Shown here: positions 25,259 through 46,186 of the stretch, in pieces
How positions within the stretch are numbered: the stretch's first letter is position 1
How the letters are laid out: the number at the start of each line of letters is the position of its first letter
NCBI RefSeq assembly: GCF_900099695.1
Contig: NZ_FNCY01000002.1
Location: 62,001 to 126,000, forward strand
Length of the DNA: 64,000 nt
Origin: Propionivibrio dicarboxylicus
GTDB lineage: Bacteria; Pseudomonadota; Gammaproteobacteria; Burkholderiales; Rhodocyclaceae
Reading direction: 5' to 3'
Translations under genes and position numbers: made by a program
The notes under the pieces: generated by a model
What the model saw: the letters and a program-made list of their open reading frames with translations, nothing else
Database searches by the model: none
What the model was told of the DNA's origin: nothing

Positions 25259-25552
25259 GTTTCATCACCTCATCAGGACACGCTGTGCGAGGCCCGAGCG
25301 ACGAAACATCCGGAATTCATCCGACGGCGTACCGTCCGTGCCTTGCAGTCAAGGCCACACCTTATAACCAGAAAAAGGCGCCGTGAACGAATTAATAATT
25401 ATTTGAATATATCAAAATGGCAGATAGGCCCCAAACCGGTGCTGCTCGAGACGTCAGCGCGGCGGCCGCACGGATGCCGACCGCGTGCCGACCACGCAGC
25501 GGCCGTCCTGCCGCTTCCGCACGAACGGCCGGACAGACGCCGCGCGTGCGCC
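25259..25552. other. Upstream region of the metNIQ operon
   Basis: About 290 bp between gudD's end and metN's start. Positions 25385-25425 are strikingly AT-rich for this genome and probably hold the metNIQ promoter on the - strand. I see no recognisable riboswitch or MetJ-type box. The GC-rich part 25440-25550 downstream of gudD contains no hairpin followed by a T-run. Confidence 0.4.
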
Positions 25553-26962: not shown

Positions 26963-27080
26963 GAATGCTTTCCATCGTTCGTCATGATCACCCTGTTCAT
27001 GCCATCCGCCGCGCGCGACAACAGGGCAGCACCGACCGGCGCGCCGCGCCGGTCGTCCTCTTTAATGCAAGCTTTCAGGG

Positions 27081-28055: not shown

Positions 28056-28143
28056 AGCAAACTCCTTCCCTGAAGTTGATACACCCGATTCCCCACCTCG
28101 CGCCGGACCGCCGAAGGAGCGCGCCGACGCCATGACAAAGCCA

Positions 28144-29655: not shown

Positions 29656-29664
29656 CGTCGTGCC

Positions 29665-30129
29665 TCAGCTTTCGAACCAGGAACCGAAGAGCGGCATCGG
29701 CAGCGACAAGCCCTTGACGAAGACCAGCGCGCAGAAGGCGATCAATCCGATCGCCGCCAGGATCGCCCGCCATTCGAGCCGGAATTTCGCGCTCGCCGAG
29801 GCGCTCCCGAGGATCAGCACCGCCAGGGCGATCAAGAGCCCGGCCCGTTCGAGCAGGAAGGCGAACGCGACGGTCGCGGCGAACACGATTCCGGCCTTGC
29901 GCCAGGCGAAACCGTTCAGCGGCGCACCGCGGCGCGTCAGGCTGCGCAAGAGCGACAGCGCACCGATCAGCATCAGCAGGCCGGACAGCAGACTCGGAAA
30001 ATACCCCGCGCCCATCCGGCTCGCCGTCCCGACCGGATAGTCGCGGGCGATCCAGTAGGCGGCCGCGCCGAACACCAAGTACAGGCATCCGGTCCAGAAA
30101 TCCTTCTGGCTCTTGATCTTAACGCTCAC
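29665..30129 (-). CDS. TctB-type small membrane subunit
   Basis: 154-residue small subunit with about four hydrophobic segments; FWTGCLYLVFGAAAYWIARD followed by GTASRMGAGYFPSLLSGLLM is the common TctB opening. The likely start is GTG 30129, preceded closely by GGGGAG; no ATG is suitably placed. The frame remains open upstream to 30372 but that part crosses a repeat element and is arginine-rich. First gene of the glucarate operon; its leader runs toward the MITE-like element at 30244-30419. Confidence 0.85.
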   Translation of the reverse strand: MSVKIKSQKDFWTGCLYLVFGAAAYWIARDYPVGTASRMGAGYFPSLLSGLLMLIGALSLLRSLTRRGAPLNGFAWRKAGIVFAATVAFAFLLERAGLLIALAVLILGSASASAKFRLEWRAILAAIGLIAFCALVFVKGLSLPMPLFGSWFES

Positions 30130-30243
30130 ACGCTCCCCTTCCCTGTTCCTTCGGCAGAGCCGCGCCGCAATGACGCTTCCTGCCCGGTCGCTTGCCACGA
30201 AACGCGCGGTGCCGTAATGCACGGCGGGCACGCTTGCGTCTAA

Positions 30244-30419
30244 GAGCCTATTTCGGTAGGGATCGTGGGCCGCGCCGGCGGCCCTTCGGGTTGCCGATAC
30301 GTGCGGTGTCTGCGGCCTTGCTCCGCTTGCGCATGGAACAACCATGCGCTGCGCCTCCCGCCTTGCATCCATCCGCCCCTATCGACAACGCGGCCCGCAA
30401 GCCCTACCGAAATAGGCTC
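30244..30419. mobile_element. MITE-like element, 176 bp, terminal inverted repeats, 3-bp target duplication
   Basis: The ends are perfect 18-bp inverted repeats: GAGCCTATTTCGGTAGGG at the left and its complement at the right. TAA stands directly outside both ends (30241-30243 and 30420-30422), a probable target duplication. Complementarity continues inward with mismatches (GGGCCGCG against CGCGGCCC) to a central hairpin GCGCATGG-AACAA-CCATGCGC (30329-30349), so the whole element can fold into one long stem. It encodes nothing. The GAGCC start and 3-bp TAA duplication resemble IS5-family elements, so it may be a non-autonomous derivative; no transposase is in the window. Confidence 0.75.
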
Positions 30420-30456
30420 TAAACTGTCGTACTTGTTGTTGCGAAGGGCAGTAAAG

Positions 30457-30472
30457 CACTAATATATTAGTG
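30457..30472. promoter_or_regulatory. Perfect 16-bp palindrome, candidate GntR operator
   Basis: CACTAATATATTAGTG is a perfect palindrome of AT-rich sequence within GC-rich surroundings. It ends 26 bp before the gntR start codon and lies in the region shared with the divergent tctB-tctA-tctC-gudD operon. Size, symmetry and place fit the binding site of a dimeric GntR/FCD regulator controlling itself and the glucarate genes. Confidence 0.6.
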
Positions 30473-30498
30473 TGTCAACGCCGTTACGGAGCCAATCC

Positions 30499-31224
30499 AT
30501 GGAAGTCATGTCCACTCTTTCCTCGCCGCCGTCGTCAGCGAGCCCGGATACGCCGCGGCTCGACCGCTCGCGTCATGCCGCGCCGCAAGTGCTCGACTAC
30601 TTGCGCGAACAGATCATTTCGCTGCGTTTGCCGCCGGGCAGCGTGCTCTCGCGACAGGACATCGCGACCCAGTTCGGCCTCAGCCAGACGCCCGTGCGCG
30701 ACGCCCTCATCCACCTGACCGAAGAAGGCCTGGTCGACGTCTTCGCCCAGCACAAGACCGTCGTCAGCCGGATCGACGTCCAGGCGGCGCAACAGGCGCA
30801 TTTCCTGCGCCGATCGATCGAAAAGGAAATCGCCCGCGTGCTCGCCAGCCAGAGCGATCCGGCGCTCATCAAGGCGCTCGAGGCGATCATCGCCAGCCAG
30901 CAACACGCGCTCGAGGCGGAGAATTACGAGGACCTGATCGGTAACGACCGGGGCTTTCACCGTCGCATGTACGACGCTGCCGGCGTGCCGGATCTCTATG
31001 CGCTGGTGCGGCGCAACAGCGGCCACCTCGACCGCCTGCGCCGCCTGCATGTCCCGGTCCCGGGCAAGGGATTGTCGGTGATCGAGGAACACCGGCGCAT
31101 CGTCGCGGCAATCGCCTCGGGCGATCCCGATGCGGCGATGCGCAGCGTCGAGAAACACCTCGCCGGAACGCTGTCATGGATTGACGGCGTCCGCGAGCAA
31201 TTCCCCGATTACATCATCCACTGA
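30499..31224 (+). CDS. GntR-family (FCD) transcriptional regulator of the glucarate genes
   Basis: 241-residue regulator. Winged helix: VLDYLREQIISLRLPPGSVL, then SRQDIATQFGLSQTPVRDAL near residues 50-70; the C-terminal FCD domain has metal/ligand residues in ENYEDLIGNDRGFHRRMYDA near 140-160 and the HRRIVAAIASGD and KHLAGTL segments. ATG 30499 has GGAG seven bases upstream; GTG 30472 and ATG 30508 are alternatives. Divergent from the tctB-tctA-tctC-gudD operon, with a 16-bp palindrome between; it is the likely regulator, responding to glucarate or a product. Confidence 0.9.
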   Translation: MEVMSTLSSPPSSASPDTPRLDRSRHAAPQVLDYLREQIISLRLPPGSVLSRQDIATQFGLSQTPVRDALIHLTEEGLVDVFAQHKTVVSRIDVQAAQQAHFLRRSIEKEIARVLASQSDPALIKALEAIIASQQHALEAENYEDLIGNDRGFHRRMYDAAGVPDLYALVRRNSGHLDRLRRLHVPVPGKGLSVIEEHRRIVAAIASGDPDAAMRSVEKHLAGTLSWIDGVREQFPDYIIH

Positions 31225-31244
31225 CGCCGGCCGGCGTCCGCCGT

Positions 31245-32444
31245 TTACTTGCCGGGCGCGGGCGACGCCGCTTCCCCCGGCGCCTTGGGCGCCGGCGTCT
31301 TCGGCAGCGTATTCACCACCATGAAGGTGACGAAGGAGGTCGCGACCATCACCCAGATCAGCGCACCAAATCCCGCCTGTTTGACCACCGGCCCGATCAG
31401 CCAGACCGCCAGCGAACTGGCACCGAGCGCGACGGTGAGCCGCATGCCGGAGACGCGCGAGCGCATGGCATCGTCGACAAAACGCACGACCATGGCATCG
31501 GTAAAGGGAATCGCGCCGAAAATCGCCGCCATGAAGACGATCTGGGCGACATAGAACAGCCAGCCCTCGGCGCCGCTGGCGACGATCAGACCGAACAACT
31601 GCAGGACAACGACGCTGATATACAGCGGCTTGAGCGCGACGGTGTCGATCAGGCGGCCGATCACCAGCTGGTTCAGCGAGGCAATCGTATAGACGATCGC
31701 GAGCAAGAGGCCGATCTGCGCGGGATCGGACGCCAGGTCGGCGAACTTGCTGCTGAGCAGTTCGAAATTGCTGCTCGTCGAGAAATTGAACAGCGTGCTG
31801 CCGCTGGTCGCTGCCACGGTCATGATGAACAGGACCTTGGCCATCGACATGCCCTGATGCTCGCCCGCCGCCGCCTTTTTCTTGGCCGGGGCCGAATGCT
31901 CGCGCGTCGCGGCCAGCGCGAAGGCGATACCGGCAAGCACGCTGATCACGCCGGGCACGACGAAGGCCATGCGCCAACCAAAATACTTGATGAGCAGACC
32001 GGTCACCCCGGCCGCTGCGGCCACGCCGAGATTGCCGGCCAGGCCGTTGAGGCCGATCACCCAGCCCGGCCGCTGTTCGCCCTGCACCAGCATCGGAATG
32101 CCAACGGGATGATAGATCGAAGCCGCGCAGCCGATCAGCGCCATGGCGATCGAGAGCTGGAGCGGCGATGCCGTCAGGCTGACGGCGATCGAGGCGAGTC
32201 CGATGCCGACGAAAAAGACGACCATCATCGGGCGCCGCCCCCAGAGATCACCGAAACGCCCGGCAGGCAAGGAGCCGAGGCCGAAGCAGAAGAAGGCCGG
32301 CACGCTGTAGGGCATCAGGTCCTCCCAGCGGGCGAGGCCGAAATCGCGGGCGATCGAGGTCACCGCTGTGGCAAAAATCAGCAGGAACATGTGGTCCAGC
32401 GCGTGACCGAGATTGAGTAGAAGCCGTGTCGTCAGATTGTGCAT
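31245..32444 (-). CDS. Major facilitator superfamily transporter
   Basis: 399-residue MFS carrier with 12 predicted helices and a hydrophilic central loop near residues 185-200 rich in Ala, Lys and His. GSLPAGRFGDLWGRRPMMVV near residue 57 is the A-motif, and AASIYHPVGIPMLVQGEQRPG near 107 resembles fosmidomycin-resistance-type and related exporters. Ends in a Pro/Ala-rich tail. It is transcribed divergently from an AraC regulator 52 bp away, which probably controls it. Substrate unknown. Confidence 0.85.
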   Translation of the reverse strand: MHNLTTRLLLNLGHALDHMFLLIFATAVTSIARDFGLARWEDLMPYSVPAFFCFGLGSLPAGRFGDLWGRRPMMVVFFVGIGLASIAVSLTASPLQLSIAMALIGCAASIYHPVGIPMLVQGEQRPGWVIGLNGLAGNLGVAAAAGVTGLLIKYFGWRMAFVVPGVISVLAGIAFALAATREHSAPAKKKAAAGEHQGMSMAKVLFIMTVAATSGSTLFNFSTSSNFELLSSKFADLASDPAQIGLLLAIVYTIASLNQLVIGRLIDTVALKPLYISVVVLQLFGLIVASGAEGWLFYVAQIVFMAAIFGAIPFTDAMVVRFVDDAMRSRVSGMRLTVALGASSLAVWLIGPVVKQAGFGALIWVMVATSFVTFMVVNTLPKTPAPKAPGEAASPAPGK

Positions 32445-32459
32445 GGGCTGATTATCGAC

Positions 32460-32476
32460 TACGATCGCTTGTCGTA
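32460..32476. promoter_or_regulatory. Inverted repeat between the MFS and AraC genes
   Basis: TACGA-N7-TCGTA lies in the 52-bp divergent gap. The right half belongs to TGTCGTATTTGTT (32470-32482), which differs by one base from TGTCGTACTTGTT at 30425-30437 upstream of gntR. It may be a regulator binding site; support is by position and repetition only. Confidence 0.35.
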
Positions 32477-32496
32477 TTTGTTATAAAACGCAAAGA

Positions 32497-33315
32497 TTGA
32501 GTCCAAAACCGCCAACACCGACCGCCGCCCGTCCGCACAAGGCACCGCATGCCGATGCGCAGGCGGCCAACCGTGTACCGCGTCCGGTCTCGGCCTTTTC
32601 ACGCCAGGACAAGGCCGGCCAACTGATCCGCACGCACACGCACGAGCGCGACCAGCTGATCACTGCCATCCGCGGCGTCATGACGGTCGAAACCGGCGAC
32701 ACCTTATGGACGATCCCGACCAGCCACGGCCTGTGGATGCCGGCCAGGGTCGGGCATTCGGTGCGCATGGACACCGACGTCGAGATGCACACGCTCTATT
32801 TCGAGGCCGGCAGCGTCGCCGGCGCGCCGCACGACTGCCGCCTGCTGGCCATCTCGCCGCTGCTGCGCGAACTGATCGTCCGCGCCATGGCGATTCGCCC
32901 GGTCTATGAGATCGACGGGCCGGACGGTCGACTGATGCGTGTCATCGTCGACGAGGTCGGACGCCTCGAAAGCGCGCCGCTCAGCCTGCGCCTGCCCGCC
33001 GACCGCCGGCTCGCCCGCCTCTGCCGGCATTTGATCGAAACGCCGGGAAACACCGAATCGATTGCCCAACTCGGCCCCCGCGTCGGTCTCTCCGAACGCA
33101 GCGTCATCCGCCTGTTCCCGCTCCAAACCGGCCTGAGCCTGCATCGCTGGCGACAGCAGGCCAAGCTGATGCGCGCCTTCGCGCTGGCCGAGCAGACGCC
33201 GTCGATCGGCGCCATCGCCGCCGATCTCGGCTACAGCAGCCCGTCGGCCTTCGCCAAGATGTTCCGCAAACTGTACGGCCGGCCGCCGACGGCGATACTG
33301 GCGCCGCGGCGCTGA
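32497..33315 (+). CDS. AraC-family transcriptional regulator
   Basis: 272-residue regulator with an N-terminal cupin-like domain (HTHERDQLITAIRGVMTVET near residue 47, SHGLWMPARVGHSVRM near 76) and two C-terminal helix-turn-helix motifs (VGLSERSVIRLFPLQTGLSL and AIAADLGYSSPSAFAKMFRK). TTG 32497 is the only plausible start: an in-frame stop lies 16 codons upstream and no ATG or GTG lies between. The ribosome site is weak. Likely regulator of the divergent MFS gene, in the manner of AraC/MFS efflux pairs. Confidence 0.85.
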   Translation: MSPKPPTPTAARPHKAPHADAQAANRVPRPVSAFSRQDKAGQLIRTHTHERDQLITAIRGVMTVETGDTLWTIPTSHGLWMPARVGHSVRMDTDVEMHTLYFEAGSVAGAPHDCRLLAISPLLRELIVRAMAIRPVYEIDGPDGRLMRVIVDEVGRLESAPLSLRLPADRRLARLCRHLIETPGNTESIAQLGPRVGLSERSVIRLFPLQTGLSLHRWRQQAKLMRAFALAEQTPSIGAIAADLGYSSPSAFAKMFRKLYGRPPTAILAPRR

Positions 33316-33387
33316 GGTGTCCACGTAGCACCAGCGTCGCAGCCCCGCCGGGGACATCGGTGACGGATAGCGTCACGCCGACGCTTG

Positions 33388-34521
33388 TCAGCGCTTGGCG
33401 GCGACTTTCCAATCAAGGACGCGCCTGTCAACCAGATCGCGAAAGGCCTGCTGGTTTCCACCCAACTCTTTCGCATCCGGAAGGCGCTTGAGCACAAATC
33501 CGCGCCCGTCTGACCAAGCGACGCTGGCGGTCTTCATCAAGGCAATCAGTTTGATTCGCCGCGGATCCGTGTCGGGAAGAAGCCCATACCACCCCCACTC
33601 GTCAGGACGGAAGCCGTCTTGCGCGGCATTGGCGGCTTTGTTGGCGATCGACACATCGAGGGTTGCGTCGCTGACGGTGTTCATCAGCGTCTGCAGTTTT
33701 TCGTTCGACCACCAGTTCTCACCGATCAGTTTCGAGAGTTGCGCCATGTAGCACAAGGGTTGCAAACTGAAATTGTGGTAGTACAGGGCGCGCTTGCCGC
33801 GCCAGATTTCGGTCGCCAGAAAGCCGTCCGAGCGGACGGCACGGGTGAGCTGATTGAACGCGGTCCTGCCAAAGTCAATGTCATCCTGGTTGTTGGTCAG
33901 CACCCCGAGTTGCATGACGCCGACGGCGCCCCACGCGTAGTGGTTGTTGCGATACTCGTTCCCGGCCCAGAACTTCCTGATGTGCAGCGAAACCTGAGTC
34001 AGCCATCACTTGATGCGCGCATCCTGGTCGGGCGTCGCCAGATCCTGCACCTTGAAATACTGGGCGGACACCGCCGCAAACAGCCACTGCTGGTGGTAAT
34101 AGCTCTGCCGCGGTTCATGCGGCATTTTCCTGATTTCGCCGAGCAAGGCATTCGCACGCGCCCAATCGTCGAGAAAGGCGACGGCGCACTTTCCCGATTC
34201 GAGGTCTTTTCTGAGCAGATAGTCATCCGCCAACGTGTTGAGCTTGAGATTCCACGCCTCCAACTGCTTGAACGCTTCCTTCCACGCGTTAAAGCGCTTG
34301 GTGTCCATGATCGAGTAGCTTCCGCCCTTCATGTCGGTGTAGAAACCGTCGAGCGCAAGATCGACCGGAATCGGCGACATGCTTCCGCAAGCACCAGGCG
34401 TTGCCGTGACAGCCGTCTTGAAGACCGATGGTTTCGACGCTTCGACCTCTTTCAGCGTCGGCGCCGATGCACAGGCCGTCAACAGGACGACCAACGGCAG
34501 CGAGAAACTGGTTTTCCGCAT
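33388..34521 (-). pseudogene. Alginate-lyase-like lipoprotein gene interrupted by one in-frame TGA
   Basis: The frame from ATG 34521 encodes a lipoprotein signal (MRKTSFSLPLVVLLTACAS, lipobox LTAC) and an AlgL-type (PL5) lyase-like protein: TPGACGSM, DGFYTDMKGGSYSIMDTKRF, LDDWARANALLGE. It meets TGA at 34006-34008 and then continues in the same frame without a shift: WLTQVSLHIRKFW, then NEYRNNHYAWGAVGVMQ, which holds the NNH catalytic motif of the family, to a stop at 33388. Total about 376 residues, matching the usual 360-380. The single change could be CGA to TGA. The upstream piece (171 residues) lacks the catalytic part. GGGAGAAG precedes the ATG. A sequencing error remains possible. Confidence 0.75.
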
Positions 34522-34643
34522 GCTTCTTCTCCCTGCCTTGCGGACCCTGATTTCATGCTTGGCCGCAAGCCCATGTTTCGCATCGCTCCATGGACTGCCC
34601 ACCATGGATGAAGGCTCTTTTTTGCCCCTTGCGATACTCGCCG

Positions 34644-37600
34644 CTATCCCTCGTCGCGTATGACATATGCCTTAATCCTGAGATCGTGGTGAACGATATG
34701 GTCAACGATCCAGGCCTTGAGATGTTTCAAGGTCTCCGTACGGCTTTTCACTTCCATATTCAGCAAAGCTTCATTCACCCGATGGTATTGCTCGAGAATT
34801 CGGCGGTGCGCTTCGACGTGTCTAATCACTTCCTCAGCCGACATGCCGAGCGACCCAAGCACTTCTTCCTCATTCAGGAAGTGTGACTTGAGCACCCGCC
34901 CAATCTCGTTCATGGCCTGGGAAAAACGCTCGGATCCGGGCGTCGATTCCTCGTCGTTCAGCAAGCCGTCGAGCAGAAGGACCAAATCAAGGTGCTCCTG
35001 GTCGATCGCAGGAATACCCGTCTTCAGCGACGGATCGATGCCGGCGGGCTGCGCTGGCGCATCCAACGCTCTCAGCAGCGTCGAATACAGCATCTCCGGA
35101 ATAAATGGCTTGGCGATGAAATCGTTCATTCCGGCAGCCAGGCAACGCGCCCGATTTTCGACGAAGGCATTGGCGGTCACCGCCAGAATCGGCGTGCGCT
35201 GCCGTCCCGGCATGGTGCGGATTCTCTGCGTCGCCTCCAGGCCATCGACATTCGGCATCTGCATGTCCATCAGGATTGCGGCATAGTTGCTTGTACTCGC
35301 CTTCCGCATCGCATCCAGCCCGTCCTTCGCCGTGTCAACCTTGAGACCGATGTCTTCGAGCAGGAACTTTGCAACCTCCAGATTCATTAATTCGTCATCG
35401 ACGATCAATATATGCCGACCGGCATGCCGATCCCTGAGCGCGTGTTCGGCCGCCGATGACATGACCGGCAATCGAGTTCCATGGCCATCGATTTTCTTCA
35501 ATTGCGCCGTAAACCAGAACGTGCTGCCAACACCAAGGGTGCTTTCCACACCGGCTTCGCCCCCCATCAATTCGGCCAGGCGTTGGGTGATCGCCAGCCC
35601 CAGCCCGGTCCCGCCATATTTCCGGGTCGTTGAACTGTCGGCCTGTGAGAAAGCGCTGAACAGACGAGGCAACACCTCCGTAGCAATGCCGATTCCGGTG
35701 TCTTGAACTTCGAAGCGGATCAGCACCGCCTCGGCCGTCTCTCGCAATTTCAAGGCGCGCAGGGTGATGCCTCCGCGTTCGGTGAACTTGATCGCATTCC
35801 CGACATAGTTGATCAGGGACTGCTGAAGGCGCGTCGAATCTCCCAGCAATTCGCACCACGCCGTCCCCGCCTCGACCTGAAGCTGCAGCCCTTTCACCTG
35901 GGCACGGCCACTCAGGATCGTCTGGACGTTGCCGAGGAGCGCCGGGATATCGACCAGGGTCTCTTCCAACATCACCTTGCCAGCCTCGATCTTGGACAGG
36001 TCGAGAATATCGTTGATGGTATTGAGCAGGTGCTCGGCCGAAGCATCGATTTTGTCGAGGCGCTCGGCCTGTACCGGGGTCACGTCGCTTCGGCGCAGGA
36101 CATGCGTCATGCCGATGATGCCGTTCAGGGGCGTGCGGATCTCATGGCTCATGTTGGCCAGGAAAACGCTCTTTGAAAGATTGGCAGCTTCGGCAGCTTC
36201 TTTGGCTAGCGCCAACTCGCGAGTACGCGAATCCACCAATTCCTCGAGGTGCTGCCGGTATTGTTCGAGCTCGGCCTCCGTCCGTCGCTGTTGGGAAACA
36301 TCCATGACCAGCGAAAACACGCCAATCACCTTGCCGTCACCATCGCGCAGCGACGTGCTATACCATTCGCATTCGATGATACTGCCGTCCTTACAAGTAT
36401 TCTTGTTGTCCGTCTTCGTCCCTCTGTGACCGAGAGCCAACTGTTGCATTGCAGCCTGAACAAGCAGAGAAGCCTCTTCGGGAACGATGAAGCTTGCATG
36501 TTGCCCGATCGCTTCACTGGCGCTATAGCCGAATATCTGCTCGGCCGCCGGATTCCAGCGCGCCACTTTGAACTCCAGATCCCATTCGATAAAAGCCAGC
36601 GGAGCCTGCTCGAACTGCAGGGCAAGCTTTTGATTGGCGGAAAGCAATTCTTCTTCCCGTAACTTCAGCTCGCTGATGTCCGCATTGATACCCAACATCC
36701 GCTCCGGCTCGCCATCGCTGCTTCGAATGACCAAGCCATTGGCCTTGATATGCTTGACGATTCCGTTGGAATGGCGAACGCGGAAAGTCGTATCGAACGC
36801 TCGTTCGCCGGCAAGGGCCGCATAACAATCGGCAATGGCCCTGTCCTTGTCCTCCGGATGCAAGCCCTGCGTCCAGGCTTCGATGGTGCTTGGGGTACTC
36901 TCTCTTGACCGCCCGTACAACTCGTACATCCGGTCATCCCACACCATGAAATCCTGCCGAAGATCCCAGTCCCAAACGCCGAGCTGCGCTGACGAGGTCG
37001 CCAGCAAAAGCCGCTGCGACACCTGTTGCACCAGTTCCTCGGCTTCTTTCCGTTTGCTGATATCGACGATACTGATCCGTAGCAATTGCCGGTCCTTGTG
37101 CGGAAGCCTGGCAAGTCGCATCTCGCAGAAAATGTTTCGCCCATCGAAGGTCCGCAGGGCCCGCTCTATCTGAATGTGCTCGCCGGCGATGACCCGTTTG
37201 AAATTGGCCTCCCGCGCTTCGTCAGATGCTGCACCAGGATGGCTGGAATCATAGAATCTGAACAGATCCCCGTTCAGCAACTCGGCGCGAGAGCATCCCA
37301 GGAGCATTTCGGCGCTGGGATTCGCTTCAATGATCAGTCGTGTTTCCCCATCCTGCAGCAGAATCGCATCCGGAGCCTCTTCGACCAACATGTGCGAAAG
37401 CGCTTCTGCCAGGCGGCGGCGATGACGCTGGTAAATCAGCGCGATGATCAGTCCGGAAAGAAGGAATATCGCCAGTCCCGCAACGATGACATAGCCCCTG
37501 TACTGGCCCCAGAGCGTCACCGGCTTGTTGATGAAGAGCGTGTCGGCAGCCAAGACGCCGGGATCGCCCCCCCATCGTTCGACTTGCTGCCAGTCGAACA

Positions 37601-38555
37601 TCGCCGTGCTGGGGTTCGAAATGAACATCACCGGATCGCTCGGCCGGTAGCCACCCTTGAGTATGTCGACTCCGAAGGACGAAAGCTGCGATGCGTCGCC
37701 GCCGATCCGCGTCACCATCCCGCCAACGAAGCCCGTGCCGATAGTCGTGTCATAGAGAACGAAGGCCGGCGCCTTGGCGAACTTGACGATCCGGGCGTAG
37801 GAATCGTTCGGAAGAAACTTTGCCCCGGTTGCGTCCTGGAGAATCCCGACTCCCATGATGATGGTATTGGGCGCCGGATTGGACAGCTTGTGGTCAATCT
37901 CGTCAAAGCTCAGGGCGCGGGTATCCTCAATCTGAAGTTTCCCCGCCCAGGGCGCGAGATCGTCGTGGATGTTCGCTTGCCTGGCCAGTTCAAGCTCGCT
38001 GTTTCCCTGAATGACGATGACACGCTCGGTCTTCGGAAACAGCTCGAGCGCACGCTGCAGGGTGCCTCGATAATCGAGGCGCGATGTCTGGAACACGAAT
38101 TTCTGGGTGCTGGTGTTCGTCCCTGGCGGCAATTGGGCGTAGGCGCTCAGAACAGTCGCTCTAGGCGCCAGATCCCGGGCATCATTCAGCAAAAAATTCA
38201 GCGCCGGCTGTTGTACGCAAAAGACCACGTCGAAATCGACATGACGATATTTTTCCTTGAGCAGCGTGGCCAACGGCTTACGAAGCCTGTCGCCGATACT
38301 GGGCAGATCGAGGTATTCGGTATGAATATCGGTGCTCTTGATGCCGCCCTTTTTCAGCCCGCTGTTCAGCGCAGCGACATACTGGTCGATCCCCGGGCCG
38401 CCGAACTCCACCGACACCAGGATCAGCGCCTGTTTGCCCGAGGACGCCGCAACGGCACCGGCAAGCGCGCTGAATGAAGAAAAGGCAAACCAAAGGAATA
38501 AAACGACAGCCAATAGACGCGGCACAAGTCTTACGCGGGACACCGGCTTGATCAT
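34644..38555 (-). CDS. Hybrid sensor histidine kinase with binding-protein-like sensor, three PAS domains, receiver and C-terminal hemerythrin
   Basis: 1303 residues. Order: signal/helix 11-38; periplasmic ABC-substrate-binding-like (PF04392-type) sensor about 40-345; transmembrane helix about 355-376; PAS domains about 390-500, 515-635 and 645-757; HisKA with His804 in [13 protein letters not shown]; HATPase with N920, DTGIGI and GGTGLGLAI to about 1020; receiver 1048-1165 with Asp1097 in ILMDMQM and Lys1149; hemerythrin-like domain about 1180-1300. The last keeps all diiron ligands: His1188, His1225, Glu1229, His1246, His1250, His1286 and Asp1291. ATG 38555 has GAGGG upstream. A histidine phosphotransfer domain, usual in this place, is absent. 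Presumably combines a periplasmic ligand with oxygen or iron/redox state. No response regulator is adjacent. Confidence 0.92.
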
Positions 38556-38891
38556 ATCGCCCTCGATAGTTGGATGTTCTTTTCGGGTCAGCGAGTCATC
38601 GCGTCGACGTTTCTTGTTGTGCATAACTCTAACGCAATAAAGAGGCAGAAGTGAAGCAATTGGATTGGCATCACCTGCCGCGCGATCCTCCTTGGCGTTT
38701 CATCTGCCAAGGCCGGTATCCGCCGGCGACGGACTTTACGTCGCCAGCATTTAGTCTTACTCTTCCAGGGCCCGAAGCAGTCCGCGAAGAGATGCCTCTT
38801 CAACTGACGCGAGGTCGAAAAAGATGCCCCTTAGGAACATGCTGCGGCGCGCATCGAATGCATGGATTCGCCGTAAAAGGAGGAAGGTAAA
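38556..38891. other. Divergent intergenic region before the kinase and the amidotransferase
   Basis: 336 bp. Upstream of the kinase an open frame of 23 codons runs to 38624 but lacks a ribosome site. Small frames on both strands here give no recognisable protein. The right end holds the strong ribosome site AAGGAGG (38877-38883) of the next gene. No clear promoter pair or hairpin noticed. Confidence 0.4.
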
Positions 38892-38894
38892 ATT
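38877..38894 (+). promoter_or_regulatory. Ribosome binding site that decides an ATT start
   Basis: AAGGAGG at 38877-38883, eight bases, then ATT at 38892-38894. The near-perfect anti-SD match and ideal spacing support initiation at ATT rather than at the later TTG or ATG. The spacing to ATG 38910 would be 26 bases, too far. Confidence 0.7.
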
Positions 38895-39659
38895 TGTGAA
38901 TTGTTAGGCATGAACTGCAACGTCCCGACCGACATCTGCTTCTCCTTCAGCGGATTCCAGGCGCGTGGCGGCGCCACCGATGTGCACCGCGACGGCTGGG
39001 GCATCGCCTTCTTCGAGGGCAAGGGCGCCCGCGTTTTCCTCGATCCGCAGCCTTCGTGCGACTCGCCGGTCGCCGAACTCGTGCGCCGTTATCCGATCCG
39101 CTCGCTCAACACGATCGCGCATATCCGCAAGGCGACGCAGGGGGCGACCGGGCTTGAGAACACACACCCCTTCATGCGCGAGCTATGGGGCCGCTACTGG
39201 ATCTTCGCCCACAACGGCAACCTGACCGATTATGCCCCCGCCCTGGACGGCAGCTTCCTGCCGGTCGGGCAGACCGACAGCGAACGCGCTTTCTGCCATC
39301 TGCTGCAGCGCCTGCGTCAGCGCTTCCCGCAGACGATGCCGGCCGCCGACGCGCTGCTCGCGGCACTTGAGGAATTCGCCGCGGAAACGCGCCGTTTCGG
39401 CAGCTTCAACTTCCTCTTGTCGAACGGCGAGCGGCTGTTCGCCCACCGCGCCACCGAACTCCATTACCTGGTCCGGCAGGCGCCCTTCTCGGTCGCCCAC
39501 CTCAAGGACGAGGACCTCAGCATCGACTTCAACGAGGTGACGACGCCGAACGACCGCGTCGCGCTGATCGCGACGCAACCGCTGACCGACAACGAATGCT
39601 GGCACCCGCTGCCCACCGACCGCGTCTCGATGTTCTGCGACGGCACGCTGGTGTCATAA
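38892..39659 (+). CDS. yafJ: Class II glutamine amidotransferase, YafJ-like, with apparent ATT start
   Basis: 255 residues, the length of E. coli YafJ, and closely similar to it: CELLGMNCNVPTDICFSF at the start, HRDGWGIAFFEGKG near residue 32, ENTHPFMRELWGR near 90, FAHNGNLTDY near 106 and PVGQTDSERAFC near 121. Class II enzymes use the Cys after the initiator Met as nucleophile. Reading backwards, that Cys (TGT) is preceded by ATT at 38892, then AAA GGT GAA GAG AAG and a TAA stop; there is no ATG, GTG or TTG before it. AAGGAGG ends 8 bases before ATT. Starting at TTG 38901 or ATG 38910 would lose the catalytic Cys. The acceptor substrate is unknown. Confidence 0.88.
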   Translation: MCELLGMNCNVPTDICFSFSGFQARGGATDVHRDGWGIAFFEGKGARVFLDPQPSCDSPVAELVRRYPIRSLNTIAHIRKATQGATGLENTHPFMRELWGRYWIFAHNGNLTDYAPALDGSFLPVGQTDSERAFCHLLQRLRQRFPQTMPAADALLAALEEFAAETRRFGSFNFLLSNGERLFAHRATELHYLVRQAPFSVAHLKDEDLSIDFNEVTTPNDRVALIATQPLTDNECWHPLPTDRVSMFCDGTLVS

Positions 39660-39680
39660 GCAGGTGAAGCTGCCTCGCCG

Positions 39681-40100
39681 CTAGACCGCGATGATTTCGA
39701 AGTCGTGCGTGATCTCGGCGGTCTTGCCGAGCATGATCGACGCCGAACAGTATTTTTCCTTCGACAGGGCGATCGCCCGCTCGACGACTTCCGGCTTCAG
39801 TCCCGTGCCGCTGACGCGGAAGTGGAAATGAATCCGAGTGAACACCTTGGGGTCGGTCTCGGCCCGCTCGGCCTGCAGGCTGACTTCGCAGCCCTGCACC
39901 GCATGCCGGCCCTTCTTGAGAATCGAGACGACGTCGAAGGCCGTGCAGCCGCCGGTGCCGGCCAGCAACAATTCCATCGGTCGCGGCGCCAGATTGCGTC
40001 CGCCGGCCTCGGGTGGCCCGTCCATCATGACGACGTGGTTGCTGCCGGTCTCGGCCAGAAACGACATCCCGCCTTCAATCCATTTCACACGACATTCCAT
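39681..40100 (-). CDS. OsmC-family protein
   Basis: 139-residue cytoplasmic protein of the OsmC/Ohr superfamily, closest in form to YhfA-type members: HVVMMDGPPEAGGRNLAPRP, MELLLAGTGGCTAFDVVSIL with the first conserved Cys near residue 52, and EKYCSASIMLGKTAEI with the second near 117. Ohr/OsmC enzymes reduce organic hydroperoxides through these two Cys, but the YhfA group's activity is not established. Its neighbour upstream is separated by a terminator, so it likely has its own promoter; it converges on yafJ. Confidence 0.88.
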   Translation of the reverse strand: MECRVKWIEGGMSFLAETGSNHVVMMDGPPEAGGRNLAPRPMELLLAGTGGCTAFDVVSILKKGRHAVQGCEVSLQAERAETDPKVFTRIHFHFRVSGTGLKPEVVERAIALSKEKYCSASIMLGKTAEITHDFEIIAV

Positions 40101-40127
40101 GGGGTTTTTCCTGTCTTCGCAAAGAAA

Positions 40128-40157
40128 TAAAAAACACGGCGAAGCATTGCCTCGCCG
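40128..40157 (-). terminator. Intrinsic terminator after the branched-chain-type binding protein
   Basis: On the - strand CGGCGAGGC-AAT-GCTTCGCCG forms a 9-bp stem (one G-U pair), followed by TGTTTTTTAT. It lies about 70 bp beyond the stop of the binding-protein gene at 40228 and upstream of osmC. Confidence 0.75.
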
Positions 40158-40227
40158 CGCCTCTTTGAACTAAGACGCCGCCAGCGCGCTGGTGGTTCCA
40201 CGCGCTAGCCGGCGACCGCTCCGACGA

Positions 40228-41355
40228 TCACTTCACCAGCACGTACTTGCCTTGGCGAATCTGCAGCTTGGCCAGCGTCTTCGACGGTTCGCGCGTCTTC
40301 GGATCGAAGGAGGTCGCGCCGGTCACGCCGGGAAAATCGCGGGTCGCCGCCAGCGCGTCGCGGACCTTGGCACGCGTCGCATTGGCACCGCCGGCGGCGA
40401 CAATCGCGTTGAGAACGATATTGGTCGCATCGAAGGCCTGCGCCGCGAACATCAGCGGCTTGCTGCCGTAACGCGCCTCATACGCCTTGACGAAGGCGCG
40501 GACATGCGATTCGGGGCTATCGACGACGAAGGAGGTCGACAGGTACAGTCCCTCGGTGGCGGCGCCCGCCAGCTCGATCAGCTTCTGCTCGTAGAGCGAC
40601 GAGGTGCCGTAGATCGCCTGCTTCAGGCCGAGCTGCGCCTTCTGCTGCAGGAAGGCCGAGCCGTCCTCGTAAAACGCGCCGAGATAGATGGCGTCCGGGT
40701 TGCTGCGTGCAATCTTGGTCAGGATCGAACGAAAATCGCGCGTGCCGGGATTGAACATCTCGGTTTCGGTGACGACACCGCCACCGGCCTTGACCGCATC
40801 GACGAAGTTCGACACCACCGACTGGCCCCAGTCGTTCTGGATCGCCACGACAGCGATGCGCTTGACGCCGTTGGCCAGCGCCCAGCGCGCCACCAGCGGC
40901 CCCTCGTAGGCCTGCGTCGTGATGTTGCGGAACTGGTACTCGCTGATCTTGGTGAAGTCGGGATGCGACGCGGTCTGCGACAGCTGCGGCAGCTTCGTCT
41001 GGGCATAGACCTGCCCGGCCGCCATCGACACCGTCGAGCTGAAATCGCCGAGCGCCGCGACAATGCTTGCGTCATCGGAGAACTTTCGCGCGATATTGAC
41101 GCCTTCCTTGGCGTCGCCCTTGCTGTCCTCGAATTTCAGCTGGACGGTGACGCCCGGCAGACGTCCGGACTTGTTGAATTCATCGACCGCCAGCGTCGCC
41201 GAGTTGCGGAACAGTACGCCGTACTGCGCATTCTCGCCGCTCAACGGCGCCTGGTAGCCGATGGCGACCGTCTTGTTCTGCGCCAAAGCGCTGCCGGCCA
41301 GCAGCAGGGCCGACACGGCCGACAACAGGATATGGCTTCTCTTGATGCTCATCAT
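40228..41355 (-). CDS. Branched-chain amino-acid-type ABC substrate-binding protein (LivJ/K family)
   Basis: 375-residue periplasmic binding protein. Signal peptide ends LLLAGSALAQ; the mature protein opens KTVAIGYQAPLSGENAQYG, typical of peripla_BP_6 proteins, with VAIQNDWGQSVVSNFVDAVK near residue 178 and DAIYLGAFYEDGSAF near 218. Members bind branched-chain amino acids, amides, urea or aromatic acids. No livHMGF permease or ATPase genes are near, and a terminator follows, so it is an orphan that must work with a distant transporter or a sensor. Start could be ATG 41355 or 41352. Confidence 0.88.
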   Translation of the reverse strand: MMSIKRSHILLSAVSALLLAGSALAQNKTVAIGYQAPLSGENAQYGVLFRNSATLAVDEFNKSGRLPGVTVQLKFEDSKGDAKEGVNIARKFSDDASIVAALGDFSSTVSMAAGQVYAQTKLPQLSQTASHPDFTKISEYQFRNITTQAYEGPLVARWALANGVKRIAVVAIQNDWGQSVVSNFVDAVKAGGGVVTETEMFNPGTRDFRSILTKIARSNPDAIYLGAFYEDGSAFLQQKAQLGLKQAIYGTSSLYEQKLIELAGAATEGLYLSTSFVVDSPESHVRAFVKAYEARYGSKPLMFAAQAFDATNIVLNAIVAAGGANATRAKVRDALAATRDFPGVTGATSFDPKTREPSKTLAKLQIRQGKYVLVK

Positions 41356-41529
41356 GCACTCTCCATGGCAGGGAATCGAAATCGGTGCTCATGGTAGCGG
41401 GCCGCTCGCGGCCGGCAAAAGAAGAAATATCTCTATCGATATAATCGCTCGACCACAATGCCTATCGCATAAAAAATCCTCACCGCATCAATGACGAGCG
41501 GACACGTCGCGACGCGCGGCGTGTCGACC

Positions 41530-42138
41530 TCAGCGAACGCCGGCGGCCAGACGTCGGACTTCGGCGGCGATTTCCAGGGCGGCGCGCCCCAGCGCGCGGC
41601 GTTGCGCGGCGACACGCTCGCCCACCGAGGCGGAAGTTAACGCAACTTCGGACGCCACACCGGACGTCGTTTCGCGAATCCGGCTGCGCCCGACGATCTC
41701 CTTGCCGTCGCGCGGCTTGAGCACCCAGGAGAGGTCGAGATCGACGGCCCCGTCGGTCTGCGCATCGAGCTGCTGGACATGCAGGGCGAGGCGGAAATCG
41801 GCATCGAAATACGGCGCCCCCGCCGGCACGGCAACAATGCCGGACGAGTCGAGCGCTTCGGCAAGACGCGCGGCCATCAGCCGGGGAATCGCGCTGCGCA
41901 AGGGTTCCGCCCAACGCTGCTGTTCGCTCAGGACGAGACGCGAATCGGCGGCGCGGAGCACCATCTGCGGTCGGTCCAGCGCCTCCGGCACACTCGCCGA
42001 CGTCACCAGCACGGTCGGACTGGCGCCACGCGCGGCAACAATGACGCCATCATCGAGCGCGTAGTAATTGACGCTCGGCGACGAAGTGCACGCACCCAGC
42101 GCGACCAATCCCATCAACATCCAATATCGACTTGGCAT
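41530..42138 (-). CDS. pqiC: PqiC outer-membrane lipoprotein of the Pqi system
   Basis: 202-residue lipoprotein (MPSRYWMLMGLVALGACTSS, lipobox LGAC) of the PqiC/YmbA family. NYYALDDG after the lipidation site and YFDADFRLALHVQQLDAQTDG in the middle are typical. In E. coli PqiC is an outer-membrane partner that docks the PqiB tunnel. Follows pqiB with a 3-bp gap and is last in the pqiA-pqiA-pqiB-pqiC operon. Confidence 0.88.
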   Translation of the reverse strand: MPSRYWMLMGLVALGACTSSPSVNYYALDDGVIVAARGASPTVLVTSASVPEALDRPQMVLRAADSRLVLSEQQRWAEPLRSAIPRLMAARLAEALDSSGIVAVPAGAPYFDADFRLALHVQQLDAQTDGAVDLDLSWVLKPRDGKEIVGRSRIRETTSGVASEVALTSASVGERVAAQRRALGRAALEIAAEVRRLAAGVR

Positions 42139-42141
42139 CGT

Positions 42142-43713
42142 CTACTGTTCCTTTTTTCCCTTGAGCAGCGCTTCCGGCTGCCGTTCGAGCAGATCGGCCA
42201 GATCATGCACCGACCGCGCCGCCCGTGCCACTTCGCGCAAAGCGTCGCGAATCTCCTGCTGCATTGGCGTATCGCTCGCCATCAGCGTCCGCGCCTGTTC
42301 GAGCGTGCCGCGCGCCGACCGCATCGTCTCGTTGAATTCCGGCGCGACCTCCTTGTCGAGCCGGGCGATCAATCCATCGGCATGCTGCAGCGTCTGTTGC
42401 AGCATGGTCGCGATATTCATCAGTTGATCCTGCAAGGAATCGAGGCTGCCCGGCTGCGTCGGCAATTCGGGGATACGCTTGTCCCAGCGGATCTTCGCCG
42501 GCTCGGTGCGCGGGAAATAATCGAGCGCGACATAGCGCTGACCGCTGATCACGTTGCCGGTGCGCAATTGCGCCCGGAACCCGCGCGCGACCATCGCATC
42601 GAGTACTTCGCGCATTTCCTTGCTCGACGCATCGCGTGCCGACAGATTGCGCGTGCGCCGGGTCAGGCGTTCGGGATACAGCTTGACCTCGACCGCCAGC
42701 GAGAAATCGGTGGTGCTCTTGTCGAAATCGAGTTCGATGCGCGAGACCTCGCCGGCGACGATGCCGCGGAAATCGACCGGCGCGCCCTCCGACAGTCCGC
42801 GCACCGATTCCTTGAAGACCAGAACGTATTTGAGGAATTCGGTATCGCGTACGCGCTGCGCCGAGGCCTGGTCGCCAAACAGCGTGAACACCGTCGTTGC
42901 CGGCACCGTTTCGGCCGCCTCCATGCCATCGCGCTCCGGTGAGGAAAAGGCGATACCGCCGACAACCAGGCTGGCCACCGACTGCATGTTGAATTTAATG
43001 CCATCCGCATCCATCGCGACATCGACGCCGCTGGCATGCCAGAAGCGTGATTGCGGCACGACGAAGCGGTCATACGGCGCGTCGATGAAGATCTGCACAT
43101 CGACGCCGCGCCCGTCTTCCTGCATGCCGTAACCCGTCACGCGCCCGACCTGGATGCGACGGTAATAGACCGGCGCGCCGATATCGAGCGAGCCGAGGTT
43201 ATCGCTGCTCAGTCGAAACGCGTGGCCGCGTGTCTCGTTGGTGATCGTCGGCGGTTCTTCCAGGCCGACGAACTTCCGGGTAGTGGTACTCGACTGTCCG
43301 GGATCCATGGCAATGTGCACGCCGGAAAGCAGCGTCGCCAAGCCGGACACGCCGGCAACCGTCACGCGCGGGCGAACGACCCAGAAGCGGCTGTCTTCGG
43401 AAAGCAGATCGCTGGCATCGCGGTTGAGTTGAATCCGCACCAGCACGGCCCCGCGATTCTCGCTCAGCATGATTTCCTTGACCGTGCCGATATCGACATC
43501 CTTGTACTTCACGCGCGTCTTGTTGGCTTCAAGCCCTTCCGCCCGCACGAACTGGACAAGCACCTCCGGACCGCGTTCGAGCAGCGCCTTGATGCCGAGC
43601 CCCAGGCTCAGGCAGATGGCGAGCAAGGGGACGATCCATACGAGGCCTAAGCGAAAGCGCGGCGCGTTCACACGCACCTCGGGAATGGACGCGTCATCTT
43701 CGGAAGGTTTCAT
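42142..43713 (-). CDS. pqiB: PqiB, MCE-domain intermembrane transport protein
   Basis: 523-residue protein anchored by one N-terminal helix (LVWIVPLLAICLSLGLGIKALL near residues 24-45) with three MCE/MlaD domains. Repeated openings are VKYKDVDIGTVKEIMLSE, GAPVYYRRIQVGRVTGYGMQ and GAPVDFRGIVAGEVSRIELD. The C-terminal 100 residues are helical (LQDQLMNIATMLQQTLQHAD), as in E. coli PqiB, where stacked MCE rings and a helical needle make a lipid tunnel across the periplasm. ATG overlaps the stop of the second pqiA gene (ATGA). E. coli PqiB has 546 residues, so this is full length. Confidence 0.92.
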   Translation of the reverse strand: MKPSEDDASIPEVRVNAPRFRLGLVWIVPLLAICLSLGLGIKALLERGPEVLVQFVRAEGLEANKTRVKYKDVDIGTVKEIMLSENRGAVLVRIQLNRDASDLLSEDSRFWVVRPRVTVAGVSGLATLLSGVHIAMDPGQSSTTTRKFVGLEEPPTITNETRGHAFRLSSDNLGSLDIGAPVYYRRIQVGRVTGYGMQEDGRGVDVQIFIDAPYDRFVVPQSRFWHASGVDVAMDADGIKFNMQSVASLVVGGIAFSSPERDGMEAAETVPATTVFTLFGDQASAQRVRDTEFLKYVLVFKESVRGLSEGAPVDFRGIVAGEVSRIELDFDKSTTDFSLAVEVKLYPERLTRRTRNLSARDASSKEMREVLDAMVARGFRAQLRTGNVISGQRYVALDYFPRTEPAKIRWDKRIPELPTQPGSLDSLQDQLMNIATMLQQTLQHADGLIARLDKEVAPEFNETMRSARGTLEQARTLMASDTPMQQEIRDALREVARAARSVHDLADLLERQPEALLKGKKEQ

Positions 43714-44339
43714 TCAGATTTTCCTGGAAAAGGCGGTGGCGACTCGACATCCCAGATCAGCCGCGGATCGAAGGCCATGGTCGCCAGCATGCTGAGCACC
43801 ACGACAGCGCCGAAGGCGACAATGCCGGGACCGGGAACGATGACGGCCAGGGACTGGACCTGAACCAGGGCCACCAACAAAGTCACCACGTAAACATCGA
43901 GCATCGACCAGCGCCCGATCAGTTCGAGCAGACGAAAGAGACGACTGCGCGCGCGCCGGTGACGGACCGAGCGTCGCCCCACCGAGAGCAGCAGATAGGT
44001 CAGGGAAAACAGCTTCAGCATCGGTACCACGACGCTGGCCGCAAAGACCACGACGGCGAGCGACCAGGAGCCGGAGTTCCAGAGAAAAACGACGCCGCTC
44101 AGGAGGGTGCTCTCCTCGGTGCCGAAGGGTGATTGCGTCTGCATCACGACCAGCAGATTGGCGGGCAGGTAGAGCACGCAGGCGGACAGGAGCAGCGCCC
44201 AGCAACGCCCGAGACTGCCGGGTTTGCGCAGGTGCAGCGGCGCCCCGCAACGCGGGCAGTGCGCGGCTTCGGCGAGCGGCGTGAGGCGTCCGCACACCTC
44301 GCAGACGGCCAGGCCGCGGCTGGCGGCGGTCACCGTCAC
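43710..44339 (-). CDS. pqiA: PqiA-like membrane protein, C-terminal half
   Basis: 209-residue integral membrane protein beginning with a zinc-ribbon-like CEVCGR...CPRCGAPL, then four helices and a conserved YLPANLLVVMQTQSPFG. It corresponds to the second half of E. coli PqiA. Start is GTG 44339, overlapping the preceding gene's TGA (GTGA). The frame is open far upstream to 44735, but that part overlaps the first pqiA gene and is Arg/Ala-rich. Probably the inner-membrane partner of PqiB. Confidence 0.88.
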   Translation of the reverse strand: MTVTAASRGLAVCEVCGRLTPLAEAAHCPRCGAPLHLRKPGSLGRCWALLLSACVLYLPANLLVVMQTQSPFGTEESTLLSGVVFLWNSGSWSLAVVVFAASVVVPMLKLFSLTYLLLSVGRRSVRHRRARSRLFRLLELIGRWSMLDVYVVTLLVALVQVQSLAVIVPGPGIVAFGAVVVLSMLATMAFDPRLIWDVESPPPFPGKSE

Positions 44340-44989
44340 GCGCGCGCCTTCCTGAACCGTCGCAAGGCGCCGCCGGCAAACGGCAGCGGCCGTGCCGCAT
44401 CCCAGGCCTGCCAGAGCGCCGGCGGGTCGATCAGCACCGACAAGGCGGCGAGCAGCGCCATCAAACCGCCGAAGCAGGCCATCGCCGGACCCGGCAGCAC
44501 ATCGGCCAGATGCGAGAGCTTGACCAGCGACACCAGCACACCGAGCACGAAGACCTCGACCATCGCCCAAGGCTGCGCCAGACGAAGCAAACGGAACACC
44601 CGCGCGAAGCCCCACGGCCGCCACCCGCGCCACAAAGGCAGGACCAACCAGAGGACGGCGCCCAGCTCGAAGAGCGGCATCAACACCGTGGTCAGCAACA
44701 CCAGGCCGGCAAGCAAGCCGCGCTCCTCGCGCCAAAGCGCCTGCGCGGCATCGAGCACCGTCGTTTCGGCATAGTGACCCTGGATGTCGAGGCCGACAAT
44801 CGGAAAGCTGATCGCCGTCACCAGCAGCGTCAATGCCGCCACCGTCAAGGCCAGGATCTTTTCCAGGCGATCGTGATGACAGCCATACAGCCGGGCGCCG
44901 CAGCGCGGGCAGTACGCCTGACTGCGCGCCGCGCTCAATTCCAGCGGCATCAGCAGGAGATCACATTCATGACAGGCGATCGGAGTCAT
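44336..44989 (-). CDS. pqiA: PqiA-like membrane protein, N-terminal half
   Basis: 217-residue integral membrane protein: CHECDLL...YCPRCGARLYG zinc-ribbon-like motif at residues 7-31, then four helices with LALTVAALTLLVTAISFPIVGL. It corresponds to the first half of E. coli PqiA, here a separate gene linked by a 4-base overlap to its second half. ATG 44989 is taken; GTG 44992 is possible. First gene of the operon; the AT-rich patch near 45176-45210 may hold its promoter. Confidence 0.88.
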   Translation of the reverse strand: MTPIACHECDLLLMPLELSAARSQAYCPRCGARLYGCHHDRLEKILALTVAALTLLVTAISFPIVGLDIQGHYAETTVLDAAQALWREERGLLAGLVLLTTVLMPLFELGAVLWLVLPLWRGWRPWGFARVFRLLRLAQPWAMVEVFVLGVLVSLVKLSHLADVLPGPAMACFGGLMALLAALSVLIDPPALWQAWDAARPLPFAGGALRRFRKARA

Positions 44990-45301
44990 CACAGCTCATT
45001 GCAGCTCGGCGCAAGGCAAACTGTTATGATACCGGCCTCACCGCCGGCTGCGCCAGGAAACTTCACCACGGCAGCGCCCGGACGCCGCCTGACGAGCGCA
45101 GCGGGCACGCTTCGACACATGGCGTACGCGCCGCTGCCGACGCGATCAAAAATGCAGCGCACCGCCCCCCCGGAAGACAAAAAACAATACTAGAATAGCA
45201 CCTTCATTCATCGACACCCCGCTGATGTATTCTCGCAAGGCAGTTCCCTCGTGCGCGCGCTGCGCACTGTCCGCCGGCTCACGCCGCGTCGAGGAGACGC
45301 G
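44990..45301. other. Divergent promoter region of pqi and the DMT transporter
   Basis: About 310 bp with no gene seen. Most is GC-rich; 45176-45210 is AT-rich and contains TATTCT- and TAGTAT-like -10 sequences on the - strand, and a TG-n-TATTCT extended -10 on the + strand near 45225-45235. GAGGAG before 45302 is the DMT gene's ribosome site. Confidence 0.4.
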
Positions 45302-46186
45302 ATGAGCAAGCTGCCGGCCGGAACCCCCAAAGGCATTCTTCTCGTCATGACCGCGGTCGTCTTCTTCTCGGTCGGCGACCTCCTGGCCAAACAACTGACC
45401 CGCGACTATCCGATCCCGCTGATCGTCTGGGCGCGTTTCACCTTTCACCTGCTCTTCGTCATCGTCGCCCTCGGCCCGCGTCATCGCCTCGCGCTTTTCC
45501 GCACGCGTTTTCCCGGCATCCAGTTCCTGCGCGGCCTGATGCTGCTTTTCGGTTCGATCTTCTTCATCACCGCGCTCAAGTACATGCCGCTCGCCGAGAC
45601 GACGGCGATCGCCTATCTGGCGCCGATCCTCGTCACCCTGATGTCGGTCGTCTTCCTCAAGGAAAAGGTCGACCTCGGCCGCTGGATCGCGATTCTCTGC
45701 AGTTTCGTCGGCGTCCTGACGATCATCCGGCCGGGCAGCAGCGTGTTCACCTGGGCCGTGTTGCTGCCGATCGCCAACGCGCTCGCCTTCGCCACCTACC
45801 AGATCCTGACGCGCCGCATCGCCGGCCTCGAAAGCCCCTACACCTCGATCCTCTACGCCGGCCTTGTCGGCTCGCTGCTCTCGCTCGCGACGCTGCCGGA
45901 CGCCTGGACGCTACCGAAATCGCCGGTGCATCTGCTGCTCTTCCTCGGCATCGGCATCCTCGGCAGCGCCGGCCACCTGATCCTGATCAAGGCCTACAAC
46001 CACGCACCGCTCTCACGGTTGGCACCCTTCAGCTATTCGCAGTTGATCTGGGTGGCAATCATCGGCTATGTCGTTTTCGACGACTTCCCCGATGCCTGGT
46101 CGCTGACCGGCATCGCCATCCTGCTGGCCAGCGGCATTTACATCGCCGGCCGTGCGCGCCAGGGCGATCCGGTGCAGACGTCCTAA
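45302..46186 (+). CDS. DMT-superfamily (EamA) transporter
   Basis: 294-residue inner-membrane protein with ten predicted helices in two EamA repeats. First repeat begins GILLVMTAVVFFSVGDLLAK; the end of each repeat has the conserved EKV/ALPL-type segment (YLAPILVTLMSVVFLKEKVD near residue 105, FSYSQLIWVAIIGYVVFDDF near 248). Usually exports amino acids or metabolites. ATG 45302 is chosen for the GAGGAG site; the frame opens earlier at 45251. It appears to stand alone. Confidence 0.88.
   Translation: MSKLPAGTPKGILLVMTAVVFFSVGDLLAKQLTRDYPIPLIVWARFTFHLLFVIVALGPRHRLALFRTRFPGIQFLRGLMLLFGSIFFITALKYMPLAETTAIAYLAPILVTLMSVVFLKEKVDLGRWIAILCSFVGVLTIIRPGSSVFTWAVLLPIANALAFATYQILTRRIAGLESPYTSILYAGLVGSLLSLATLPDAWTLPKSPVHLLLFLGIGILGSAGHLILIKAYNHAPLSRLAPFSYSQLIWVAIIGYVVFDDFPDAWSLTGIAILLASGIYIAGRARQGDPVQTS

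Follow-up and report, generated by a model that had tools for sequence, protein, structure and literature searches.

The yafJ gene and its proposed start codon

The window analysed here, a stretch of 64,000 nucleotides from Propionivibrio dicarboxylicus, carries on its plus strand a gene for a predicted YafJ-type class II glutamine amidotransferase (38892-39659; 255 codons plus TAA). The Pfam profile GATase_4 (PF13230) matches the protein over its whole length (residues 1-254, 396 bits), and the closest solved structure, PDB 1te5, aligns with it from residue 1, placing its MCELLGM opposite the window's (I)CELLGM. Matches to the NCBIfam models of other amidotransferases fall far under their cut-offs, and the source genome has one N-terminus of the YafJ type.

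The proposed start codon is an ATT (38892-38894). Upstream, the frame is closed by a TAA (38874-38876), after which come AAG GAG GAA GGT AAA, the ATT itself, and then TGT GAA TTG TTA GGC ATG AAC TGC; none of the five codons between the stop and the ATT is ATG, GTG or TTG. The Shine-Dalgarno (SD) sequence AAGGAGG (38877-38883) is separated from the ATT by 8 nt (38884-38891), and its pairing energy with the anti-SD sequence, -11.6, is the third lowest of 90 orthologues. The codon for the catalytic Cys (38895-38897) directly follows the ATT, and the next canonical in-frame starts, TTG at 38901 (codon 4) and ATG at 38910, both lie beyond it. A second TAA (38888-38890), out of frame, stands one base before the ATT and ends a possible upstream open reading frame (ORF).

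The original prediction held that the conserved Cys-Glu-Leu-Leu-Gly-Met N-terminus is intact solely with a start at ATT 38892, that an in-frame TAA precedes it with no ATG, GTG or TTG in between, that AAGGAGG ends eight bases before it, and that a later start would lose the catalytic Cys. The coordinates, the codons and the alignments to 1te5 and Pfam agree with this description on every point: the ATT is the sole position that keeps the N-terminal Cys. It is most likely the real start of the gene.

Two further searches concerned the surroundings of the start. An Rfam search of 38400-39100 returned nothing up to E 1. UUG 38894-38896 was considered as a decoy start, an idea taken from the available portion of PMC9841429, and was rejected; it is directly followed by UGA and would leave no product.

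A proposed start codon at the edge of a foreign-looking block

A protein search of 59 genomes gave a match in 35, the source genome included. In the best other genome (G026, same genus; protein identity 98%), the gene begins ATG TGC GAA CTG CTC GGC, and among the rows listed, ATG is found in this closest relative and, G018 excepted, in every other member of the genus whose 5' end can be read. The original prediction had allowed for relatives in which the N-terminus lies elsewhere; the ATG of the closest relative is at the same codon, directly before the Cys, and the N-terminus is thus not elsewhere.

DNA homology between the window and G026 (blastn, E 1e-3) covers 38892-46184 and 31281-33315. 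Between these two stretches there are 5.6 kb in the window (33316-38891) versus 84 bp in G026. The homology starts at codon 1 of yafJ because a foreign-looking block of 5.6 kb replaces the 84 bp; the replaced stretch ends at 38891, and the start codon is therefore the first triplet after it, a feature that the original prediction did not include. A query of 341 bases around the start also matched in 13 others of the 28 genus genomes, in each case from query position 273 or beyond, that is, at the ATT or later.

The block has a G+C content of 0.576, versus 0.623 for the window. Third-position G+C is 0.70 in the block's histidine kinase gene; yafJ has 0.87, and the AraC-type gene that precedes the block has 0.84. 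The three larger reading frames of the block are a lyase in two pieces and a hybrid histidine kinase, with no integrase. The polysaccharide/alginate lyase gene (33388-34605, minus strand) has one in-frame TGA (34006-34008), and both of its pieces match the family. The hybrid histidine kinase (34644-38624, minus strand, 1326 aa) comprises PAS, HisKA, HATPase, receiver and hemerythrin domains, and its third-position G+C is below that of its neighbours. A second stretch, 25421-31280, is also absent from the closest relative (about 5.9 kb versus 128 bp there); among its frames, named by eye, are some that resemble a tricarboxylate transporter set and a GntR-type regulator.

The idea that the ATT leaders might be the end of a site-specific mobile element was prompted by two observations made in other genomes. 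Dechloromonas SB18 (L049) repeats the first seven yafJ codons (GTG TGC CAG CTG CTC GGC ATG) 58 nt before its own ATT, and Rhodocyclus gracilis (L052 2611-2630) and a member of another family (G154; L057 1459-1478) have in common, upstream of yafJ, a stretch that includes a small inverted repeat. The local score of the latter pair is 32, versus a maximum of 30 in 8000 shuffled controls, and it was found among 4005 pairs. The mobile-element idea gained no support and was rejected: the ends of the block share no stretch of more than 7 bases in a short-word comparison, the larger frames of the block include no integrase, and the common stretch was present in R. gracilis alone out of 199 family genomes and in zero viral contigs. 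The pattern of ATT, ATC or ATA followed by the YafJ N-terminus was absent from viral contigs.

Recoded first codons and selection on the protein

Changes in the lineage of the window were counted with G005 as the outgroup, at sites where G005 and G026 agree. In codons 1-6 they affect 5 of the 18 bases that can be compared, versus 13 of 567 later in the gene (Fisher p 1e-4). All five of the early changes are to A or T (one G to T, in the start codon, three C to T and one C to A), and amino acids 2-6 (Cys-Glu-Leu-Leu-Gly; now TGT GAA TTG TTA GGC, 38895-38909) were left unchanged by them. Apart from the start codon, yafJ of the window differs from that of G026 in 28 synonymous and 3 other codons (dN 0.007, dS 0.17), and by this comparison the gene is under purifying selection.

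Recurrence of ATT and ATC in related genes

The order survey accepted any first codon except those beginning with C and gave a match in 119 of 399 genomes. Among its 121 hand-counted rows, 117 had ATG, 2 had GTG and 1 had TTG; the window alone had ATT. The family survey, made with the same restriction, also counted by hand and overlapping the genomes of the contig scan described below, gave a match in 213 of 395 genomes; among the matches listed (150), there were 143 with ATG, 2 with GTG, 1 with TTG and 4 with ATT or ATC (the window, G018, G521 and G477).

The contigs of 84,980 species (genome_contigs) were scanned for ATT, ATC or ATA, and for these first codons only, before the YafJ N-terminus, using a pattern that covers only part of the family. 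This gave 8 loci with ATT or ATC, three of them in Rhodocyclus species. The ATT loci belong to R. gracilis, Rhodocyclaceae BROCD002 and Dechloromonas SB18, and the ATC loci to R. purpureus, R. tenuis, Propionivibrio Bin178, Ideonella oryzae and Ideonella B508-1. The original prediction had proposed a comparison of the first codon among relatives, and the outcome is divided: these eight loci of other species, in a few other genera, have ATT or ATC in the same position, but the closest relative has ATG. As a control, the same ATT/ATC/ATA pattern was sought before other Met-Cys amidotransferases (purF/glmS type) and found in 0 of 395 genomes; the canonical pattern was found in only 6 of 101, so this control has no power.

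The yafJ of Bin178 is frameshifted into two overlapping pieces, and this gene may be dead. Between the Rhodocyclus species, yafJ has a dN of 0.12-0.14 and a dS of 0.68-0.97; the protein is therefore under selection, and the codon differs, being ATT in one of the species and ATC in the other two. A quick tree was built from 89 of the 90 sequences (one shorter than 140 aa was left out). On it, the ATT/ATC state requires at least six changes, one of which is the frameshifted row on an unreliable long branch; another, that of Ideonella, meets a long branch, and 35 of the 86 inner branches are open. Judged by these comparisons, ATT and ATC starts in YafJ genes are rare but recurrent.

Statistical compensation for a weak start

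The 90 distinct sequences compared comprise 9 with ATT or ATC, 76 with ATG, 3 with GTG and 2 with TTG. Pairing with the anti-SD sequence is stronger in the ATT/ATC genes than in the ATG genes (medians -8.2 and -5.7; p 0.010), A/T is more frequent at seven synonymous early sites (2 versus 1; p 0.023), and folding around the start is weaker (-9.6 versus -12.95; p 0.024). These p values are optimistic, because the sequences are related and were sampled non-randomly. Two ATT genes, those of the window and of R. gracilis, carry the A/T excess (5 and 6 of the 7 sites, respectively); the ATC genes have 0-3.

Proposed mechanism

We consider it likely, taking the explanation as a whole, that the window holds a working yafJ with an ATT start, a foreign block upstream, a compensating SD sequence and first codons, and a sensitivity to initiation factor IF3. 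Ribosomes would start at ATT 38892 with initiator fMet-tRNA, and the Met would then be removed, which would make the Cys the N-terminal nucleophile of the predicted amidotransferase. A foreign block has displaced the native sequence between the genes as far as codon 1, and the strong SD sequence, together with the A/T-rich and weakly folded first codons, would offset the weakness of the start. Since IF3 acts against AUU and AUC starts, according to the available portions of PMC5472188 and PMC2268962, the output of yafJ should rise when IF3 is short, and the ATT start probably makes the expression of the gene IF3-sensitive, with whatever benefit such a response might bring.

The infC gene of the source genome (L117) has AAGGAG, then seven bases, then ATC, with no in-frame ATG, GTG or TTG seen by eye before its conserved region. 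It appears to start at ATC, and the cell therefore probably initiates on AUC already.

Alternative explanations

A stop codon next to the start, combined with upstream ORFs, makes a coupling of termination and restart possible, in which ribosomes ending an upstream ORF at TAA 38888-38890 would restart at the ATT one base on. We regard this as possible though unlikely; it is compatible with the mechanism proposed above and names another source of ribosomes. An out-of-frame stop ends one base before the start in 4 of 4 ATT and 2 of 2 TTG genes, versus 3 of 76 ATG, 0 of 5 ATC and 0 of 3 GTG genes, but this pattern was noticed after the fact and is partly a by-product of the A-rich spacer. The upstream ORF of SB18 opens with the second copy of the N-terminal codons and closes at the TAA before the ATT, and in two of its relatives whose yafJ begins with ATG (L058 and L064), an upstream ORF likewise has its start codons at these distances. 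On the other hand, no start codon precedes the stop in BROCD002, and R. gracilis has only ATG-TAA. In the window, ATGs lie 34 and 100 nt before the ATT in the frame of the TAA, but by eye they are without a clear SD sequence, and the ORF is not conserved in the closest relative, where the upstream region is unrelated.

That yafJ is a dying gene, deprived of its promoter and start by the foreign block and heading for loss, is improbable. The start lies exactly at the edge of the block, the lyase gene within the block is itself interrupted, and a simple scan of 38560-38960 found no promoter-like site; yet the frame is open over 255 codons with few amino acid changes, and Cys-Glu-Leu-Leu-Gly was kept through five base changes behind a very strong SD sequence.

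A base error or strain artefact, the true codon being an ATG with its G read as T in a draft genome of 44 contigs, seems quite improbable to us. The ATT is one base away from the ATG of the closest relative, and the window is known from one genome; against this, the 12 bases that follow hold four more real-looking differences, the upstream region is different throughout, and ATT or ATC is found at the same codon in other genomes, including three Rhodocyclus species.

Propeptides occur in some class II amidotransferases, and an N-terminal leader begun at an upstream start and later trimmed to the Cys is conceivable at the 3 of 8 scan loci with an upstream in-frame start (GTG 9 nt upstream, within the SD region, in SB18 and BROCD002; GTG, ATG, ATG and TTG in R. 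gracilis), but it is impossible in the window, where the TAA is followed by five start-less codons, and, with canonical starts, at the 5 of 8 loci that have no ATG, GTG or TTG from the in-frame stop to the codon (both Ideonella, R. purpureus, R. tenuis, which has two CTG there, and Bin178), and upstream of the gene the Rhodocyclus species have little in common past the SD sequence; this reading is very improbable.

Significance and comparison with known systems

Enzymes with a catalytic Cys that is bound to follow the initiator Met reveal their translation start without experiment, and the YafJ family thus provides a natural view of rare start codons. What is seen in it suggests that an ordinary metabolic gene can acquire AUU and AUC starts and keep them. 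It is important to note that gene finders restricted to ATG, GTG and TTG would move the start of such a gene and delete its active site. The family also allows two questions to be tested: by what means evolution makes up for a weak start (a stronger SD sequence, A/T-rich early codons, weaker folding), and whether control by IF3 extends past the factor's own gene. We tentatively propose, as a wider view that we hold to be rather doubtful, that YafJ genes of Betaproteobacteria have repeatedly left ATG for ATT or ATC, with compensating leaders and a stop one base before each ATT, and that a metabolic amidotransferase has in this way come under IF3 control, perhaps with stop-restart coupling, its level following the balance between IF3 and ribosomes.

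The original prediction also described an ATT start in a metabolic gene as unusual and the known cases as tied to IF3. The rarity stands, but two precedents speak against the rest: the metabolic enzyme gene pncA (BBE22) of Borrelia burgdorferi has an AUU start, as reported in the available part of PMC13398362, and sigR of Streptomyces has a GTC start, so that non-canonical starts are not confined to the gene of IF3 itself (PMC5472188, in the part available). Non-canonical starts are thus of a known kind, represented by infC, sigR and pncA; as far as we have searched, what is new is the recurrence of ATT and ATC in a single family of metabolic enzymes in which the start is fixed by the N-terminus. 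Our literature search found no report of a non-AUG start in yafJ.

Among proteins of known structure, the YafJ-type amidotransferase of PDB 1te5 resembles the window protein as a whole, from residue 1 onwards; the window gene is unlike it in having ATT as the start codon in place of ATG. Like yafJ, infC has AUU or AUC as the first codon after a good SD sequence; it is self-controlling, whereas yafJ is a metabolic enzyme gene without known feedback. According to the available part of PMC5472188, sigR is a case outside infC in which a non-canonical start is kept within a genus and the Met is removed; it differs from yafJ in that its codon is GTC instead of ATT or ATC and its repression by IF3 has been shown experimentally. 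Borrelia pncA is likewise a metabolic enzyme gene with an AUU start, and it was mis-annotated because the start is non-canonical; as described in the accessible part of PMC13398362, it is one gene in one species with genetic, biochemical and structural support, whereas the switch in yafJ, known from sequence alone, is recurrent.
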